NCBI GenBank assembly: GCA_902578505.1
Contig: CACHDD010000018.1
Coordinates: 1-15,810 of the forward strand
Direction of reading: 5' to 3'
Source of the DNA: an uncultured Bacteroidota bacterium
Lineage (GTDB): Bacteria > Bacteroidota > Bacteroidia > Flavobacteriales > UA16
DNA length: 15,810 nucleotides
Both the position numbers and the translations under genes were made by a program. How positions within the stretch are numbered: position 1 is the stretch's first letter; every line of letters begins with the position of its first letter. Positions 3,609 through 15,810 of the stretch are shown piece by piece. A model generated the notes under the pieces. That model saw only the letters and a list, made by a program, of their open reading frames with translations, ran no database searches and was not told the DNA's origin.

Positions 3609-5675
3609 TTAGTAGCTTAGTAGCTCTTCAATTGTAGCAGCAACCTTGTTTGCGCTTGGCAACACCGCCTCCTCCATCTCAGAATTCAGAGGAATAGCGG
3701 GTAGTGAAACAGAGCCCAAAATCTTTGGCGCTGCGTCCAAACTCTCAAAACACTCCGAAGCAATTCGCCCACTTAGACTTAACCCAAAGCTATTTTCCAC
3801 AGGCTCCTCTGTCAGAACTAGACATCTGTTAGTCTTCGCAACAGACGTCGCAATAGCTTCCATATCTACTGGAACGATGGATCTCAAGTCTATGATTTCA
3901 ACTGTTCCAGGGAACTTTTCTGCTGCTTCCTTTGCCCAGTATACACCACGGCCATAAGTAATGATACTGCATTGAGAATCTTCAGAAGGATTTACTTCTA
4001 GAACCGTCCTTGCTTTACCTAGCGGGACGATGTAGTCGCTAGAAGGTTCGATGCATTTGGCCTCCTCAGTACCAGGGATTTTAGACCAATAAAGCCCTTT
4101 GTGCTCTAGGATAACCACAGGATTTGGGTCGTGGAAGGCAGCTTTAATCAAGCCTTTTAAATCCGCTCCATTTGAAGGGTAAGCCACTTTGATGCCTCTG
4201 ATATTAGATAGCACTGATTCCACTGATGAGCTGTGGTAAGGTCCTCCAGAACCATAAGCTCCAATAGGTACTCTAATCAATGAGTGTACTGGCCACTGGC
4301 CATTTGATAGGAAGTATGATCTGCTTAGTTCTGTAAATAATTGATTGAGCCCAGGCCAAATGTAATCTGCAAACTGAACCTCAACTACTGGCTTTAAACC
4401 CACGCACGACATACCCACCGTAGACCCTATGATGAATGCCTCTTGGATAGGTGTGTTGAATACTCGCTCATCGCCAAACTTATCGCCAAGCGTTGCAGCC
4501 TCTCTAAATACTCCTCCTAACCTCTTTCCTACGTCTTGGCCGTAAAGTAAAGATTCGGGATACTCTTCCATAAGCTCTTGCATAGCGTGAAGAGCACAAT
4601 CTACCATAAGTGTAACTTCTCCACCTTCAGGATGGCGTTTCCCCTTTTCTTCAGTTACATCTGTTGGAGCGAATTTATGTGCGATTAGATCTTCAAAAAC
4701 TGGTTCTTTAGCATGTCTTGCTCTTGCAAAATCTGCTTCAACTTTTTTGCGTAAATCTGCGCTTAGTGCATCTAAATCTGTTTGAGAAATAACTCCATAT
4801 TCTAAAAGAATCTTTTCAATTTTTGGAAGAGGGTCTCTTTGTCTTGCATCATCTAAATCATCTCTATAAAATTCGCGTCTAACACCAGAAGTATGATGAC
4901 CTAGTAATGGGACAGTTGCGTGAATTAAAAAAGGACGCCTTTCATTTCTAACCTTACTAAAGACTTCTTCCATTAACTCCATACAAGCAACTAAATCTGT
5001 TCCGTCAATGTGTTTAACTTCTATTGGTGGGAACCCTGCAGCCATAGTTTGGGCATCGCCAAATCTTATCTCAGAAGCATGCGCACTAATGTCCCATTCA
5101 TTATCTTGAATAAGCCATATTATAGGCATCCTACGTAGTGCAGACATATGTAAAGCCTCACTCACCTCACCCTCTGTAATTGCAGCGTCACCTAATGAAC
5201 ACATTACAACTGGAGCATTTCCCTCATCCCACACATCAAGTCCTTGATTTTCCCTATACTGCAAGCCCATTGCAACTCCTGCAGCTGGTATAGCCTGCAT
5301 TCCAGTTGCTGAGCTTTGGTGAGGGATTTTAGGCAAATCATCTCTGTTTAGAGAAGGGTGGCTGTAATAGGTTCTTCCACCAGAAAAGGGATCATCTTTT
5401 TTTGCGAATAACTGTAACATTAACTCAAATGGCTTCAAGCCCATTGAAAGCAAAATGCTATCGTCTCTGTAGTAGCAGCTAAGCCAATCTTGCTTTCTTA
5501 ATAAAGAACCTGCAGCTACTTGAATTGCCTCGTGTCCGTTAGAGCAAGCATGCACATATTTTGCCGTTAGTTTGGCGTTTTCCTCATAAATATTAGACAT
5601 ATGTCTTGCAGTACGCATAAGTTTATACGCACTAAGAATTTTTTCATTCGATATTGAGTCTGATAAATTCGACAT
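3609..5675 (-). CDS. Fused E1 alpha/beta 2-oxoacid dehydrogenase, branched-chain type
   Basis: A thiamine-diphosphate E1 component that decarboxylates a 2-oxoacid and hands the acyl group to a lipoyl E2. It has 688 residues. The alpha part (about 1-340) carries the ThDP motif starting GDAAITEGE (162-170) and ending DNEWDIS (191-197). LGHHTSGVRREFYR (258-271) resembles the active-site loop of branched-chain 2-oxoacid dehydrogenase E1 alpha (GHHSTSDDS type). The beta part starts near 353 with GEVTLMVDCALHAM and continues with YGQDVGKRLGGVF, EVQFADYIWPG and GAYGSGGPYHSSS. Alpha and beta subunits on one chain are known in Bacteroidota. Substrate choice (branched-chain rather than pyruvate) is inferred; E2 and E3 are not nearby. 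The ATG at 5675 is preferred over a TTG at 5684, which lies inside the promoter -7 element. Confidence 0.88.
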   Translation of the reverse strand: MSNLSDSISNEKILSAYKLMRTARHMSNIYEENAKLTAKYVHACSNGHEAIQVAAGSLLRKQDWLSCYYRDDSILLSMGLKPFELMLQLFAKKDDPFSGGRTYYSHPSLNRDDLPKIPHQSSATGMQAIPAAGVAMGLQYRENQGLDVWDEGNAPVVMCSLGDAAITEGEVSEALHMSALRRMPIIWLIQDNEWDISAHASEIRFGDAQTMAAGFPPIEVKHIDGTDLVACMELMEEVFSKVRNERRPFLIHATVPLLGHHTSGVRREFYRDDLDDARQRDPLPKIEKILLEYGVISQTDLDALSADLRKKVEADFARARHAKEPVFEDLIAHKFAPTDVTEEKGKRHPEGGEVTLMVDCALHAMQELMEEYPESLLYGQDVGKRLGGVFREAATLGDKFGDERVFNTPIQEAFIIGSTVGMSCVGLKPVVEVQFADYIWPGLNQLFTELSRSYFLSNGQWPVHSLIRVPIGAYGSGGPYHSSSVESVLSNIRGIKVAYPSNGADLKGLIKAAFHDPNPVVILEHKGLYWSKIPGTEEAKCIEPSSDYIVPLGKARTVLEVNPSEDSQCSIITYGRGVYWAKEAAEKFPGTVEIIDLRSIVPVDMEAIATSVAKTNRCLVLTEEPVENSFGLSLSGRIASECFESLDAAPKILGSVSLPAIPLNSEMEEAVLPSANKVAATIEELLSY

Positions 5676-5681
5676 CAGATG

Positions 5682-5689
5682 CAAAGGTA
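5682..5689 (-). promoter_or_regulatory. Promoter -7 element of the E1 gene
   Basis: On the minus strand this reads TACCTTTG, a full TAnnTTTG match. It ends 6 bases before the ATG at 5675, so the transcript would be leaderless or nearly so. No TTG lies at the usual 17-23 base distance upstream, which lowers confidence. Confidence 0.45.
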
Positions 5690-5704
5690 CGTTACCTTAG
5701 AAGC

Positions 5705-7621
5705 ATGAAAGAAGGTATGCAATTTGAATTTCAGAAGTGGGAGGGGACGGGAAATACCTTCGTCATGATAAATGCTTTAGAATGGGATATTGAAGAATTT
5801 GATAAGCAATTGATTCAAAAAATTTGTAATCGTGAGGAAACGGATGGGATTATTTTCATAAGATCTTCATCAAAAGTGCAAGCTGACATTTTCTGTGATT
5901 TCAGAAATCCAGATGGCTCTATATCCTTTTGTGGTAATGGAACTAGAGCAACTTATGCATATGCAAGAAGAGAGGGTTGGGTAGGAGATGAGGCTGTTTT
6001 TGAAGCATGTGATGGACTTCATAGAGTAAGGTGGAATTTAGATTTGAACCTTCCGAGTGTTGAATTTGAAAAAGTAGGAGTGCCCAAAGAAGTAGAAGGA
6101 GATTGGTTTGTAAATACAGGATCACCACATCACATCTTCAGAGTTGACTCACCTGAAACTCTTGATTTAATTGACATAGAGAAAATTGGATCAGAGATAA
6201 GGTATTCTGAAAAATACCAGCCCCATGGCACAAATGTTAGCGGCCTTAGCAATACATCAGAAGAGTCAGAAATATGTCTTAGGACTTACGAAAGGGGTGT
6301 TGAGGCAGAGACCGAAGCTTGTGGCACCGGAGCTGTTGCCGCAGCATTAATTGATCATACAATAAATGGAGGCAATCCCTCGAGAAAGGTTAAGATGCCA
6401 GGAGGAGATCTTCATGTTGAATTTGATCCAGTAACAGATGGTTACAAGAGCGTTTGGCTTTCGGGGAAAGCGTCAGAATTGCGAAGAGGGATTATTACTT
6501 TCCTTCTAGCTTTATTGCCTTTTTTATCCGAAGCCCAAACCCAGTGGCACGAGAATCTCAGCGTCCAAACCCAAATCAGCGTACTAACCGCTAGCCCCGG
6601 AGAGGATATATATTCTCTTTTTGGCCATACTGCTATTAGGGTTTACGATCCATTAAACCTCCCTGAGTCGGATTGGGTTTTCAATTATGGAACCTTCTCT
6701 TTTAATGACGGATTCTATTTCAAATTTGTAAAAGGAAGGCTCGATTACAAGTTGACAGTTGAACCATATCATCACTTTTTTAGAGTTTATAATCAATCAG
6801 AAAGGGGTATAAAATCCCAAACCCTAAACTTAAATCCCAAGCAGGTAAAAGCAGTAGCTAAATACCTTGAGTGGAATGCCAAACCAGAAAACGCCACATA
6901 CTCCTATGAATTTTTCAGAGATAATTGTGCATCAAGGATAATTACTGTTCTTGAAGAAGCACTAGGTGAATCTTTAGAAACTAATTGTCAATCTGACGTA
7001 AGGACCTATAGAGATGGTCTTAAACCATATATAGCTTGTACACCTTGGACTGAATTTGGGATGGACTTCATCCTTGGCCCTGAAGCAGATAAAGTCATGG
7101 AGGGCTGCGCAGCGGCATATATTCCAGATGAGCTTTACCTAGCGCTTGAAAGAATGGAAATAGATTCTATGCCTTTGGTAAAATATTCTGAAGAACTCAT
7201 TATTTCCCCAACATCTTGGATGAATGCTGAAAGCTTTGTCATAGCTAAGTTTAAGTCACCAGATTTGTTGTTTTTTCTACTCTTAATATTGGTAGCATTA
7301 CTTAGGTATTTGGTAGGCGAAAGCAACCTTGTAACTAAAATCGTTGTTAAAACTATACAGATAGTTGCTGCTTTGTTAGGGGTGCTGCTTTTAGTGATGT
7401 GGTTGTTCACTGATCACATTGACACTTGGGGTAATTGGAATTTACTTTGGACTATCCCAATGTTGGCAACTTTAATAAACAGAAAGGGGCTAATTCTCTC
7501 ATATATAGCCTTTGCTGGGTATTTGATTGTAGGTCCTTTTATCTGGCCTCAGTTGGTAACACTTTCATTGTGGCTTGTGGCTGTAACCGTATTTTTGACA
7601 ATAACTCCAAATCCTAAATGA
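5705..7621 (+). CDS. dapF: Diaminopimelate epimerase fused to DUF4105 membrane protein
   Basis: A 638-residue ORF with two unrelated parts. Residues about 5-262 are DapF, which converts LL- to meso-diaminopimelate for lysine and peptidoglycan. Visible are the N-terminal EGTGNTFVMI, the first catalytic cysteine in CGNGTR (Cys76), PHHIF and the second catalytic cysteine in EACGTGA (Cys206); the final strand is around WLSGKASELRRGII. With no stop codon, the frame runs into a basic-hydrophobic segment (RRGIITFLLALLPFLSEAQ, 260-278) and a DUF4105 (Lnb N-terminal-like) domain with SLFGHTAIRV (304-313) and FFRDNCASRI (403-412). About five C-terminal membrane helices follow (roughly 520-632). Either this is a true fusion or DUF4105 is translated separately from TTG 6479, giving 380 residues with a signal peptide. 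ATG 5717 (MQFEFQKWEGTGN) is an alternative DapF start that fits the family slightly better. The stop overlaps the next gene by 4 nt (ATGA). Confidence 0.85.
   Translation: MKEGMQFEFQKWEGTGNTFVMINALEWDIEEFDKQLIQKICNREETDGIIFIRSSSKVQADIFCDFRNPDGSISFCGNGTRATYAYARREGWVGDEAVFEACDGLHRVRWNLDLNLPSVEFEKVGVPKEVEGDWFVNTGSPHHIFRVDSPETLDLIDIEKIGSEIRYSEKYQPHGTNVSGLSNTSEESEICLRTYERGVEAETEACGTGAVAAALIDHTINGGNPSRKVKMPGGDLHVEFDPVTDGYKSVWLSGKASELRRGIITFLLALLPFLSEAQTQWHENLSVQTQISVLTASPGEDIYSLFGHTAIRVYDPLNLPESDWVFNYGTFSFNDGFYFKFVKGRLDYKLTVEPYHHFFRVYNQSERGIKSQTLNLNPKQVKAVAKYLEWNAKPENATYSYEFFRDNCASRIITVLEEALGESLETNCQSDVRTYRDGLKPYIACTPWTEFGMDFILGPEADKVMEGCAAAYIPDELYLALERMEIDSMPLVKYSEELIISPTSWMNAESFVIAKFKSPDLLFFLLLILVALLRYLVGESNLVTKIVVKTIQIVAALLGVLLLVMWLFTDHIDTWGNWNLLWTIPMLATLINRKGLILSYIAFAGYLIVGPFIWPQLVTLSLWLVAVTVFLTITPNPK
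6479..6541 (+). other. Signal-peptide-like junction with possible internal TTG start
   Basis: TTG at 6479-6481 is in frame and opens a sequence with two arginines, a hydrophobic core (GIITFLLALLPFL) and a small-residue cleavage-like end (SEAQ). This would be a normal signal peptide for a stand-alone DUF4105 protein. Read as part of the long chain it is a signal anchor with its positive end in the cytoplasm, placing DapF inside and DUF4105 outside. The segment also supplies the expected last strand of DapF, so both proteins share it. Confidence 0.55.
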
Positions 7622-9162
7622 AAAAAACATACTTCTTTTTTATAGCTCTAGTAATTTTTTGTCTGGTTGGGTGTGAGAATAGAAAACCCTTAAGTTGGGA
7701 AACTGATGTATTTTTACCTTTACTTGATGATAGAATAGGGTGGCTTGAATTTGTTGAAGATTCTCTTGATATAGTATTAACAGATGGAAATCCTGCTAGA
7801 ATTGTTTTAAATCAAGGTGTTGAATTTACATCTGGAACAATAGCTCCTGTTCTTCCTGATACATTGATTGAAAAAAATATTGGTATAGGGAATATTCCCG
7901 TAGATATTCCTGTGCCAACAGAATATCCATTTATACTTCAAGAAGATGAAATTCCAATTATAAATCTAGGTGGATCTTCTGGTGCGTACTTAAGAGAGGT
8001 AGTAGTAACTTCAGGTGAAATGGTGTTTACTGTCGAGAATTCAATAGGGGGTATTTTAGATATGAGCTATTATCTTACCTGTTGTACGATAAATGGAGAA
8101 CAGGTTGGAATAGATCTTGAAATACCTGCTGGAACCGATGATAATATTGGTTTCGCTTCGGGTTCATTATCACTTGAAAATGCTGTTTTTGATTTAACTG
8201 GTTCGGCTGGAGTTTCAAATAACTTGCTTACAACTTACTTTGAGGCACAAGGTTCTCAGCTAAATGAGGAAATATTTTTTGCTAATAGCCAGGATAACAT
8301 TAAAGTCACAATTCAATTCCAAAATTTTGAAGTAAAGAGTGCATTAGGATATTTCGGTAATTTAGACTCTAGATTTTCAGAAGAAGAATTGATAACAGAT
8401 ACAGTTCCGCTACCAAATGCAATCATTCAGATGGATGGAGCAATCGCCAAACTAAAATTAGAAAATACAATAGGTGCAGATATAAGACTCACCTTTGATT
8501 CTCTAAATTTTGATGGGCTTCAGCTTCAGCATCCCTCTATTTATGATGTTCATGATATGGCTCGAGCCCAATGGAATAATGGTCAGCTGCTATCTACAAC
8601 TAATTTAGAATTAGACCTGATGGAAGAAGAGAGTACTCTAGGTGAATTACTAGAAATGATGCCCGAGAAACTAGAAATTGTAGGTGATATTGAACTTAAT
8701 CCTTATGGTGATGTTAGCCTTGGGAACGACTATATCGATGTCGATATGCAGCCTAACATAAATATATTATTAGAGCTTCCAATACACGTTGGTTTTGATG
8801 GTCTACTACTAGAAGATAGTTTCGAAATAGATCCTATTGATTCTACAAGTTTTGACGGTCGATTGTTAGTTGACTTTTGGAGCACTTTTCCAGTCCAGGT
8901 TGAGTCGCATCTAGTGTACACGGTTAATAATACATCCCAAACAGAAATAGTTAGAGATGTCGTTATTGATCCAAATAATATGGATCTGGGGCAAGATGGA
9001 CATGGATTTGTGGAAATTCCTGCAAATGATTCTCTTCTCGTTCCAGGAGCAACAGTTGACGTAACCGTATATGTAAGTACAGAGGGAGCAGTTGTATTTG
9101 ATGGAACAGAGGAAGTAAGAGTTCAAATAAGAGCTGAAGGAACATACTTGATCAAAGAATAA
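7618..9162 (+). CDS. Predicted lipoprotein of unknown function
   Basis: A 514-residue protein with a lipoprotein signal peptide: basic start, hydrophobic stretch, then LVGC with the lipidated cysteine at position 19. The residues after it (ENRK) do not make an obvious acidic surface-export signal, so a periplasm-facing outer-membrane location is the simplest guess. The mature part is acidic and looks all-beta, with alternating hydrophobic strands and many Asn/Gly/Asp turns. Two similar stretches centred on ENSIGG (140-145) and ENTIGA (282-287) suggest duplicated immunoglobulin-like or LEA14-like beta domains. I do not recognise the family. It starts inside the previous stop (ATGA) and its own TAA shares a base with the following barrel gene, so the pair is probably made together. 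Confidence 0.8.
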   Translation: MKKTYFFFIALVIFCLVGCENRKPLSWETDVFLPLLDDRIGWLEFVEDSLDIVLTDGNPARIVLNQGVEFTSGTIAPVLPDTLIEKNIGIGNIPVDIPVPTEYPFILQEDEIPIINLGGSSGAYLREVVVTSGEMVFTVENSIGGILDMSYYLTCCTINGEQVGIDLEIPAGTDDNIGFASGSLSLENAVFDLTGSAGVSNNLLTTYFEAQGSQLNEEIFFANSQDNIKVTIQFQNFEVKSALGYFGNLDSRFSEEELITDTVPLPNAIIQMDGAIAKLKLENTIGADIRLTFDSLNFDGLQLQHPSIYDVHDMARAQWNNGQLLSTTNLELDLMEEESTLGELLEMMPEKLEIVGDIELNPYGDVSLGNDYIDVDMQPNINILLELPIHVGFDGLLLEDSFEIDPIDSTSFDGRLLVDFWSTFPVQVESHLVYTVNNTSQTEIVRDVVIDPNNMDLGQDGHGFVEIPANDSLLVPGATVDVTVYVSTEGAVVFDGTEEVRVQIRAEGTYLIKE

Positions 9163-13608: not shown

Positions 13609-15810
13609 TTAGTGAACGTACAACTTCGTGGTATGAATCATGCCATTTTCTATATCAGTAGCAATTACAAGGAATACCCCCTTAGTCTCAGTTGTTACCA
13701 TAAAATTATGGTCTTCTGTGACTAATTGATTGAATATAACCTTTCCACTTATGTCAATAACCTTTACTATTGCATTATTCAACGTCCTAATTTTTATTGT
13801 CTTAGATAGCGGAGGAGAGAATGTTTTGATGAGTAAGTTGTCATCTATATTTTCATCAAACATCGTTTCAGAATCAAATCCTTCAATCTCTACGCAATAA
13901 TTAGGATCATATTCACACGATCCGTCGTTATACAATGCAGTTGAATCATAGTTGCAAGCTTCAATATCAATACAACCCAGCTCTAAACAACTTTCAAATT
14001 CACACTGTCCAAAAGCCGAATAGTTACATGCATTTTGCTCGTAACAATAATCGCTTTGAGGAGCTCCATCACAAGGGCCAAAAATACAAGATCCTGGTAT
14101 ATAGTAATCTGCTTCAGGATCGTAGTTACACGCAAATGGGATAATACATCCGCCAAATAGTTCTGGAATACAAGTTCCATTATCATCAGTTGCTTCAGGG
14201 TTGTAATTTGTAGCTGTTGGGTCTGTACAACCAGGAATTTCATTCTCATCACAAATACCATCTCCATCAGTATCATTTAAACAGTTGCTATCACAATCCA
14301 CAAATGCATTTTCCGGATACTCACACATGCTGAAATCATTAATTGTTGCTACTGTATCGTAGTTGCAAGCCTGTTCATCTATACAACCAATACAAGAACT
14401 AAAGTCACACATTGTAATGTCCATGTAGTCAGCACTACTGTCATAATTACAAGCATATGGCTGTATACATCCAGCAACAAGACAAGAGCCATCATCATTT
14501 GTTGCGCTTGGGTTGAAGTTTGGACTTTGAGGATCAGTACATCCACTTATTTCAAACTCGTCACAAACTTCATCTCCATCTGAATCATTATTACAATCTC
14601 CATTACAATCGTATCCAAATAATGGCAGTTCACAGCTTCCATCATTAATACTAGCTTCTTGATCGTAGTTACAAGCATCTTCATCAGTACATCCAGTACA
14701 TGATGTGAAATCACAAGATCCTGGAATTAAGTATCCTGCTGTTGGGTCATAGTTACAAGCAAAAGGGACAATACATCCACCAACGATACATGACCCGTCG
14801 TCGAATGATGCATTTGGATCATAGTTAGGGTTGTTTGAATCTGTACATCCAACCTCTTCTGTGTCACATATTCCATTTTCATTTTCGTCTGCTTCACATG
14901 ACCCACCACATATGCCAATCGCGTCATCTACATTGCCAGCACAGTTACAAGCACCTTCTGGAATTCCAGGACCATTACATACACCACAAGCGTCTAATTG
15001 GCCTACACAGTCATCTACATCATCACATACTCCGTCCGAGTCAGCATCAGCAGTACAATAGCCACCGCATACTCCAATAGCATCTTCTTGATTTCCATCA
15101 CAGTCACAATCATCAAATGGTATGTCAGAACAGCCACATTCGTAAATAGCTCCAGGACCGTTACAGACTCCACAATCGTCGTATTCCCCTATACATGGAT
15201 CTTCTTCGTCACATATTCCATCAACGTCAATATCATTAGAACATGATCCATCACAATTGAATATTGGGTTTTCTGGATACTGACACATCAATAAGTTTGA
15301 AAGAGTAGCATCTGGGTCGAAGTTACATGCTAATTGATCCATACAACCTATACATGAAATAAATTCACACATCGTAATTATCATGTAATCTGCTGAAGGG
15401 TCATAGTTGCAAGCAACAGGGTAAATACATCCACCTACTAAACAAGAACCATCATTTTCAGTAGCTTCTGGATTGTAGCCTGGGTTTGTTGGGTCAGTAC
15501 AACCAGGAATTTCAAATTCGTCACATACTCCATCACCGTCAGAATCATTTAAACAAGTACCTTCACAATCATAACCGTATTCTGGTTCTTCACATGTATT
15601 ATTATTTAGAGTTGCATCAGGATCATAGTTACAAGCTTCAGGATCAGTACAACCCGAACAACTTATAAAGTCACAAGATCCAACAATTAAGTATTCAGAA
15701 TTAGGATCGTAGTTACATGCAATTTGAATAGTACAACCACCAGTTAAACAAGAACCATCATCAAATGCCGCGTTTGGGTCATAATTTGGATTTGATGGGT
15801 CAGTACATCC
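13609..15810 (-). CDS. Cys-rich repeat protein with T9SS sorting domain (partial, 5' end missing)
   Basis: The frame is open from the window edge (15810) to TAA at 13609-13611, giving 733 visible residues with the start outside. An internal ATG at 15384 opens a 591-residue reading but is not the true start, because repeat sequence continues upstream of it. Most of the chain is built of units of about 102-104 residues rich in Cys, Asp, Asn and Gly. Each holds GCTDP...NPxAT..DGSC, ACNYDP, SC.GC.D..ACNYD and a calcium-loop-like DSDGDGVCDE element as in thrombospondin type 3 repeats. The last 75 residues resemble a type A T9SS domain (IKIRTLNNAIVKVIDISGKV, later GVFLVIATDIENG, end TTKLYVH), although the usual YPNP opening is replaced by FSPP. 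It is probably a large, calcium-stabilised and disulfide-rich surface or secreted protein. Function unknown; adhesion or structure is only a guess. Confidence 0.85.
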   Translation of the reverse strand, partial: GCTDPSNPNYDPNAAFDDGSCLTGGCTIQIACNYDPNSEYLIVGSCDFISCSGCTDPEACNYDPDATLNNNTCEEPEYGYDCEGTCLNDSDGDGVCDEFEIPGCTDPTNPGYNPEATENDGSCLVGGCIYPVACNYDPSADYMIITMCEFISCIGCMDQLACNFDPDATLSNLLMCQYPENPIFNCDGSCSNDIDVDGICDEEDPCIGEYDDCGVCNGPGAIYECGCSDIPFDDCDCDGNQEDAIGVCGGYCTADADSDGVCDDVDDCVGQLDACGVCNGPGIPEGACNCAGNVDDAIGICGGSCEADENENGICDTEEVGCTDSNNPNYDPNASFDDGSCIVGGCIVPFACNYDPTAGYLIPGSCDFTSCTGCTDEDACNYDQEASINDGSCELPLFGYDCNGDCNNDSDGDEVCDEFEISGCTDPQSPNFNPSATNDDGSCLVAGCIQPYACNYDSSADYMDITMCDFSSCIGCIDEQACNYDTVATINDFSMCEYPENAFVDCDSNCLNDTDGDGICDENEIPGCTDPTATNYNPEATDDNGTCIPELFGGCIIPFACNYDPEADYYIPGSCIFGPCDGAPQSDYCYEQNACNYSAFGQCEFESCLELGCIDIEACNYDSTALYNDGSCEYDPNYCVEIEGFDSETMFDENIDDNLLIKTFSPPLSKTIKIRTLNNAIVKVIDISGKVIFNQLVTEDHNFMVTTETKGVFLVIATDIENGMIHTTKLYVH
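13885..15810 (-). repeat. Five tandem Cys-rich protein repeats, two alternating subtypes
   Basis: Read from the window end the units are A (15810-15505, 102 residues), B (15504-15196, 103 residues, followed by an insert), C (14850-14545, 102), D (14544-14233, 104) and E (14232-13885, a longer degenerate unit). Each begins GCTD. A and C share YLI.GSCDF and a GYDC element; B and D share ITMC.F, MC.YPEN and GICDE. The repetition is at protein level: third codon positions differ widely between units, so these are old duplications. The array continues beyond the window. Confidence 0.85.
14851..15195 (-). repeat. Insert of two DxCGVCNGPG modules within the array
   Basis: This stretch of 115 residues lies between units B and C and is absent from the others. 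It is itself a tandem pair, 62 residues (15195-15010) and 53 residues (15009-14851). Each module has (D/A)CGVCNGPG, then an N.(E/D)DAIG(V/I)CGG element, then a calcium-loop-like end (ADADSDGVCDD in the first, ADENENGICD in the second). Confidence 0.8.

Follow-up and report, generated by a model that had tools for sequence, protein, structure and literature searches.

A diaminopimelate epimerase and an Lnb-family protein encoded in one open frame, joined by a predicted internal signal peptide, in a single family of Bacteroidota

The window analysed here is a DNA stretch of 15,810 nucleotides from an uncultured Bacteroidota bacterium, whose forward strand carries, at positions 5705-7621, a stop-free frame of 638 codons plus stop that comprises a complete diaminopimelate epimerase (DapF) followed by a complete protein of the DUF4105 (Lnb) family. 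In the open-frame listing the first ATG, GTG or TTG lies at 5654 and the end at 7621; the ATG at 5705 is the start chosen in an earlier sequence-only reading, and the 638-aa product is backed by the frame listing, by Pfam and NCBIfam models and by its relatives. DapF, delimited by family models, solved relatives and alignment, takes up residues 1-262 (5705-6490, forward strand, as are all the following parts), with its catalytic cysteines at C76 (5930-5932) and C206 (6320-6322). Residue 259 is encoded by an in-frame TTG (6479-6481), which the codons and residues found across the window's clade mark as a possible internal start for Lnb, and it is followed by the putative hydrophobic core of an internal signal peptide, IITFLLALLPFL (residues 263-274, 6491-6526), recognised by hydrophobicity in a region of low model confidence. 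A signal peptidase I site, SEA/Q, is predicted at 6527-6538 from the site pattern, with the cut between residues 277/278. The Lnb part, recognised by family models and the structure model and predicted to be mature from Q278 (6536-7621), consists of a periplasmic permuted NlpC/P60-like domain, in which alignment places the invariant residues H308 (6626-6628, within FGHTAIRV) and C408 (6926-6928, within RDNCASRI), and of five C-terminal membrane helices seen by hydrophobicity and in the structure model (residues 518-633, 7256-7603). The sequence-only reading had described the single frame with both DapF cysteines, the signal-peptide-like segment without a stop codon between the halves, the two DUF4105 motifs and about five membrane helices, and every one of these features was found again. 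As read from the frames and from locus comparison, the next gene on the same strand (7618-9162) encodes a lipoprotein (lipobox ...CLVG/C) and overlaps the fused gene by ATGA, while an inverted repeat, AAGGTA-CGT-TACCTT plus spacer, lies just 5' of the start codon (5684-5704).

The assignment of the first half is supported by both DapF models, PF01678 (85.9 bits, cut-off 34.7) and TIGR00652 (145.6 bits, cut-off 114.65). Among 17 solved sequences matching this part, 16 are named DapF and one is an O-ureido-serine racemase; by fold, it comes closest to E. coli DapF (4ijz, target-normalised TM 0.79). The second half is matched by PF13387 (Lnb_N) at 95.4 bits (cut-off 22.2), and PF25221 (5TMH_Lnb) reaches 23.9 bits, just below its cut-off of 25.2, being reported for the 94% identical relative P0001. 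The Lnb equivalog model NF051878 scores 203.4 bits over residues 265-586, short of its cut-off of 550, and 156-177 bits in four further fused proteins. Since the stand-alone relatives P0115, P0116 and P0120 also fail it (283, 260 and 271 bits), falling short of it seems to reflect distance from Bacteroides, and the fused protein belongs to the Lnb family by Pfam, below equivalog level.

The DUF4105 domain corresponds to Lnb, the N-acyltransferase of Bacteroides lipoproteins, according to PMC12994826, PMC12345273 and PMC13103446. The expected likeness to permuted NlpC/P60-like proteins was borne out, the Lnb part showing both the fold and the His-before-Cys order of that superfamily. The suggested tie to a cell-wall hydrolase process found no support, Lnb acting on lipoproteins. 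A sequence search for solved relatives of the Lnb part returned none, only three matches at E 0.33 to ribosomal protein L2, and Foldseek alone gave no Lnb match at E <=0.001, the match being gained after realignment. In the structure models five helices follow the periplasmic domain. The full chain is modelled with a pTM of 0.64, too low to place the DapF half relative to the Lnb half, and Lnb alone with 0.87. Within residues 250-285, which had been singled out earlier, the last DapF strand of the model extends to residue 265, with confidence of 52-64 over residues 261-280. Armbruster et al., in 2024, reportedly described Lnb as the lipoprotein N-acyltransferase of Bacteroides, and a 2013 paper by Hor et al. 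states in its title that DapF requires dimerization.

Whether relatives carry one protein or two was answered by a protein search, of whose 306 matches 120 were listed. Among these, at least 104 clusters (P0001-P0101 and P0104-P0106) are fused, all with both Pfam domains and with identities from 94% down to about 35%; the set includes a few proteins short at one end, such as P0036 (501 aa) and P0100, which lacks its start in A1. A stop near 6480 separating the genes in all close relatives had also been envisaged, and fused relatives proved to occur throughout that range. Both active sites are kept across the fused clade: in a 112-row alignment C76 is present in 105/105 and C206 in 107/107 rows with a letter there, and H308 and C408 in 112/112. 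At genome level, 299 evenly picked genomes of the order (280 with a match) and 114 of the family (96 matching at 1e-40) were searched, and the fused genomes of the order sample, among the matches listed, all recur in the family search. Loci were fetched for part of the family's matching genomes; the 89 with a match comprise 42 fused ones, from 41 genomes plus the window itself, 40 with dapF and lnb as separate genes and 7 single-domain pieces at contig ends. G209 and G150 are probably fused as well and broken by contig ends, the frame of G209 running on into Lnb. In the phylum sample (395 genomes, 194 matching at 1e-60), the sole stop-free two-part match among the rows listed is G002, so that, as far as sampled, the fusion is confined to one GTDB family. 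Among the rows compared, the fused clade contains no split copy.

All source-named proteins among the 104 fused ones are called 'diaminopimelate epimerase', and Lnb can therefore look absent in annotation. One locus of the family (L001/G001, protein P0003) is titled 'Euryarchaeota archaeon', its gene being 69% identical to that of the window and from the same family as the Crocinitomicaceae-titled G002/L002; this is probably a mislabelled public record, which puts a wrong name on a public protein.

Second copies were sought in 44 genomes, fused or candidates, together with the separate G091. DapF has one locus per genome except in G272 and G221, which show extra pieces at contig ends: those of G221 appear to be the halves of a single gene, and those of G272 overlap, one of them comprising an entire DapF domain whose frame stays open up to the contig end, which makes a second dapF copy or a second strain possible there. 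Lnb was found in 43/44 genomes, in one place each (in G170 as two pieces at contig ends), and was missed in G209, where the contig ends. No stand-alone second dapF or lnb was detected in the fused genomes, G272 being unsettled and these absences provisional, as genome completeness was not given. Furthermore, in the 42 fused genomes neither Lnt nor LL-DAP aminotransferase (TIGR03542) gave a match above cut-off, with weak partial matches to the former in 12 and weaker matches to the latter in 41.

The separate loci indicate how the fusion could have arisen. In 31 of the 40, lnb lies directly 3' of dapF, and in the other 9 about 900 bases further; in L047 and L090 the gene in between is, as read by eye, presumably BadF/GlcNAc-kinase-like. 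Eight close loci (L037-L040 and L042-L045) have a dapF/lnb ATGA overlap with lnb in a different frame, and in L055 the two are separate adjacent genes. In a tree of Lnb (80 rows) the 40 fused rows all fall on one side of a single branch (SH-aLRT 99), and in a tree of DapF (76 rows) the 36 fused rows do likewise (support 89); both trees are quick and unrooted, and rows with a short domain were excluded, which removed two fused rows from the Lnb tree and six from the DapF tree. Since genes kept apart are the norm in the phylum sample, the most economical interpretation is a single gain with no later loss, and the fusion seems to go back to one event.

At the junction the DapF motif WLSG is followed by KASELRRG, the core and SEA/QTQW, the apparent signal peptide of Lnb being placed directly after the last DapF strand. 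The site was sought as a pattern, [small]-x-A ahead of a polar residue, and the counts were compared with 500 shuffles, which overstate significance because the proteins are kin. In the window-like group the pattern occurs in 34/34 proteins against 13.1 in shuffles (s.d. 2.8, highest 22), and in all listed fused proteins in 94/104 against 64.0 (s.d. 4.0, highest 75). Among the 70 distant fused proteins 60 have it against 50.9 (s.d. 3.1, highest shuffle 60), a slight excess which, taken alone, is within chance; it is absent in 10/104. A laxer pattern gave 38/42 fused loci against 27.5 and 32/38 separate loci against 26.8, two separate loci without the motif being left out. By this pattern, the signal peptidase site is clearly kept in the window's clade. 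The median hydrophobicity of the junction is 1.58 in the 104 listed fused proteins (window-like group 1.82, others 1.51), closer to the 1.77 of separate Lnb N-termini (35 loci) than to the 2.22 of the best C-terminal helix. Across 30 codons of the junction, it is the third positions that differ most in each of the three pairs formed by the window, L007 and L008 (0.43-0.50 vs 0.07-0.33).

The best explanation of these observations, which we hold to be somewhat likelier true than false, is a vertically inherited polyprotein, predicted to be cut after A277 into a DapF with a hydrophobic tail and a mature Lnb. A stronger form of this proposal, whose chances we put at just under even, is that the sole meso-DAP epimerase and the sole lipoprotein N-acyltransferase of these cells would always be made as one obligate chain and be parted by signal peptidase I, DapF serving as the n-region of the signal peptide and being then freed or kept at the inner membrane with its hydrophobic tail. 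Against a processed polyprotein speak the slight excess of the site in the distant proteins and its absence in 10/104; in addition, a cleavable signal is not usually preceded by a folded domain of 262 residues, an in-frame start codon stands at the place of the Lnb start in the window's clade, and the value of 1.82 in the window-like group would be compatible with a lasting helix.

The last point leads to the alternative of one uncut chain, a two-sided membrane enzyme whose DapF half would lie in the cytoplasm and whose Lnb half would lie outside, the hydrophobic stretch being a permanent first helix to which Lnb adds five. The frame is open in 42/42 fused loci, both domains model well, the last DapF strand passes into the junction, junction hydrophobicity in the window-like group rises to 1.5-2.1, and the cut-site pattern is missing in those 10 listed fused proteins. 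However, the best 19-residue mean of the window's own junction is 1.32, below the threshold of 1.4 by which the other helices were recognised, the model confidence at the junction is as low as stated above, and 94 of the 104 listed proteins have the signal peptidase site, a feature which an uncut protein would not need. We consider a permanently uncut chain unlikely.

Less probable still is the existence of two translation products, that is, the full chain and an extra Lnb started at the internal TTG at 6479, with the same mature form after signal removal. Such a start had been suggested from the sequence, and the codon itself is real: the product read from it, M-RRG-IITFLLALLPFL-SEA, has a plausible signal peptide, and a start codon occupies that position in 14/15 window-clade loci, the window counted and several being close kin (ATG 10, TTG 4, TTA 1). 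TTG accounts for 4 of the 5 Leu codons there, compared with 29% of Leu codons generally. Nevertheless, one locus has TTA, Ile is found there in 2/34 window-like proteins (Met 22, Leu 10), and the position also belongs to the last DapF strand, where hydrophobicity may be favoured in any case. Mean percentiles of local folding were 0.43 at the 6479 position, 0.49 at other ATG/TTG codons and 0.35 at 12 true starts; these, taken as positive control, likewise lacked an open structure, so that folding speaks neither for nor against a start. Elsewhere in the fused clade, 23/27 loci have an ATG, GTG or TTG between the end of DapF and the core but 4/27 have none, and as judged from these codons internal initiation cannot be general. 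Moreover, it cannot yield free DapF, because no stop exists. In the window's clade internal initiation may add Lnb, and both routes could coexist there, with DapF supplied by the long chain only. Finally, an artefact of assembly or sequencing joining two genes, or hiding a stop or frameshift as had been feared, has practically no chance of being true: it is refuted by the fused relatives, since 41 further genomes share the open frame, at least 104 clusters among the matches listed agree and the junction codon differences keep the frame, and nothing was found in its favour.

For the signal-peptidase-cut polyprotein the following course can be proposed. In the ancestor lnb would have lain directly behind dapF, and loss of the dapF stop in the lnb frame would have let DapF take the place of the short n-region of the Lnb signal peptide. 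The ribosome would make a single chain, of which DapF would fold in the cytoplasm while the internal signal is inserted by Sec and the Lnb domain moved to the periplasm. Signal peptidase I would then cut after A277, leaving DapF, for some time at least at the inner membrane, with a 15-residue hydrophobic tail; the other product, a normal mature Lnb, would N-acylate lipoproteins, perhaps including the product of the adjoining gene. Through the fusion, both enzymes would be produced from one message in a constant 1:1 ratio.

Both enzymes are already known and are joined here through the predicted internal signal peptide; no report of a DapF-Lnb fusion was found by title or abstract in the literature searched, mostly outside which lie subscription papers. 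The fused protein shares with ordinary DapF (TIGR00652, PF01678) the active-site cysteines and the fold, and is the sole DapF locus detected in the fused genomes, G272 being unsettled; it differs in having no stop, its last strand leading into the putative signal peptide and a second enzyme. Likewise, it shares with the Lnb of Bacteroides (PF13387, PF25221, NF051878) the permuted NlpC/P60-like domain, the invariant His and Cys and, in the structure model, the five helices, but has DapF in place of the n-region of the signal peptide. The FbcH cytochrome b/c1 precursor of Bradyrhizobium is also a single chain, which signal peptidase cuts at an internal signal into two proteins, although its parts are subunits of one membrane complex, whereas here the first part is a soluble enzyme of another pathway. 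The bifunctional DapF/glutamate racemase (NF038284) is also a DapF variant with a second job, which there is not an added membrane enzyme, and its model gives 99.8 bits on the fused protein against a cut-off of 350.

Here two enzymes that belong to different pathways and to opposite sides of the membrane appear to be joined through a signal peptide, and both active sites are kept over a deep clade. If the chain is cut, it would be a cellular polyprotein processed by signal peptidase, bearing on how Sec handles a folded domain before a cleavable signal; if it is not, wall-precursor synthesis would take place at the membrane, beside lipoprotein maturation.

As regards the neighbourhood, the frame directly 3' of the fused gene was examined in the 33 loci with enough downstream sequence: it has a strict lipobox at its start in 15 and, by eye, a Cys after a hydrophobic stretch in 17 more, the last one being unclear in the part seen. 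With a lipoprotein gene recurring right after the fused gene, the same transcription unit encodes Lnb and, in this lipoprotein, one of its likely substrates. On the 5' side, AAGGTA-CGT-TACCTT lies in a 29-base gap between dapF and a divergent dehydrogenase gene, assuming the ATG of the latter at 5675. AGGTACGTTACCTT is kept in 12/12 window-clade loci with a visible start, and TACCTT followed 4-9 bases on by the start codon is found in 36/42 fused loci; the sequences of the remaining six break off upstream of the start codon. We take this element to resemble the -7 box of Bacteroidota, and with such a -7-like box so near the ATG the messages from the fused gene may be leaderless.

Other long frames were seen in the same family and in the window. 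Matches to the aminotransferase model fall in frames of about 690-840 aa in G139 (C27), G203 (C40), G221 (C6), G249 (C45), G227 (C111), G133 (C47) and G085 (C11), and in G139 this match coincides, by contig region and frame length (760), with one to the end of the nitrilase-like Lnt model; perhaps these represent another fusion. In the window, the reverse strand carries at 3609-5684 the E1_dh and transketolase-like parts of a 2-oxo acid dehydrogenase in one 691-aa frame, and at 13609-15384 a Cys/Asp-rich repeat protein with GCTDEDACNYD-like repeats and no Pfam match at 0.001.
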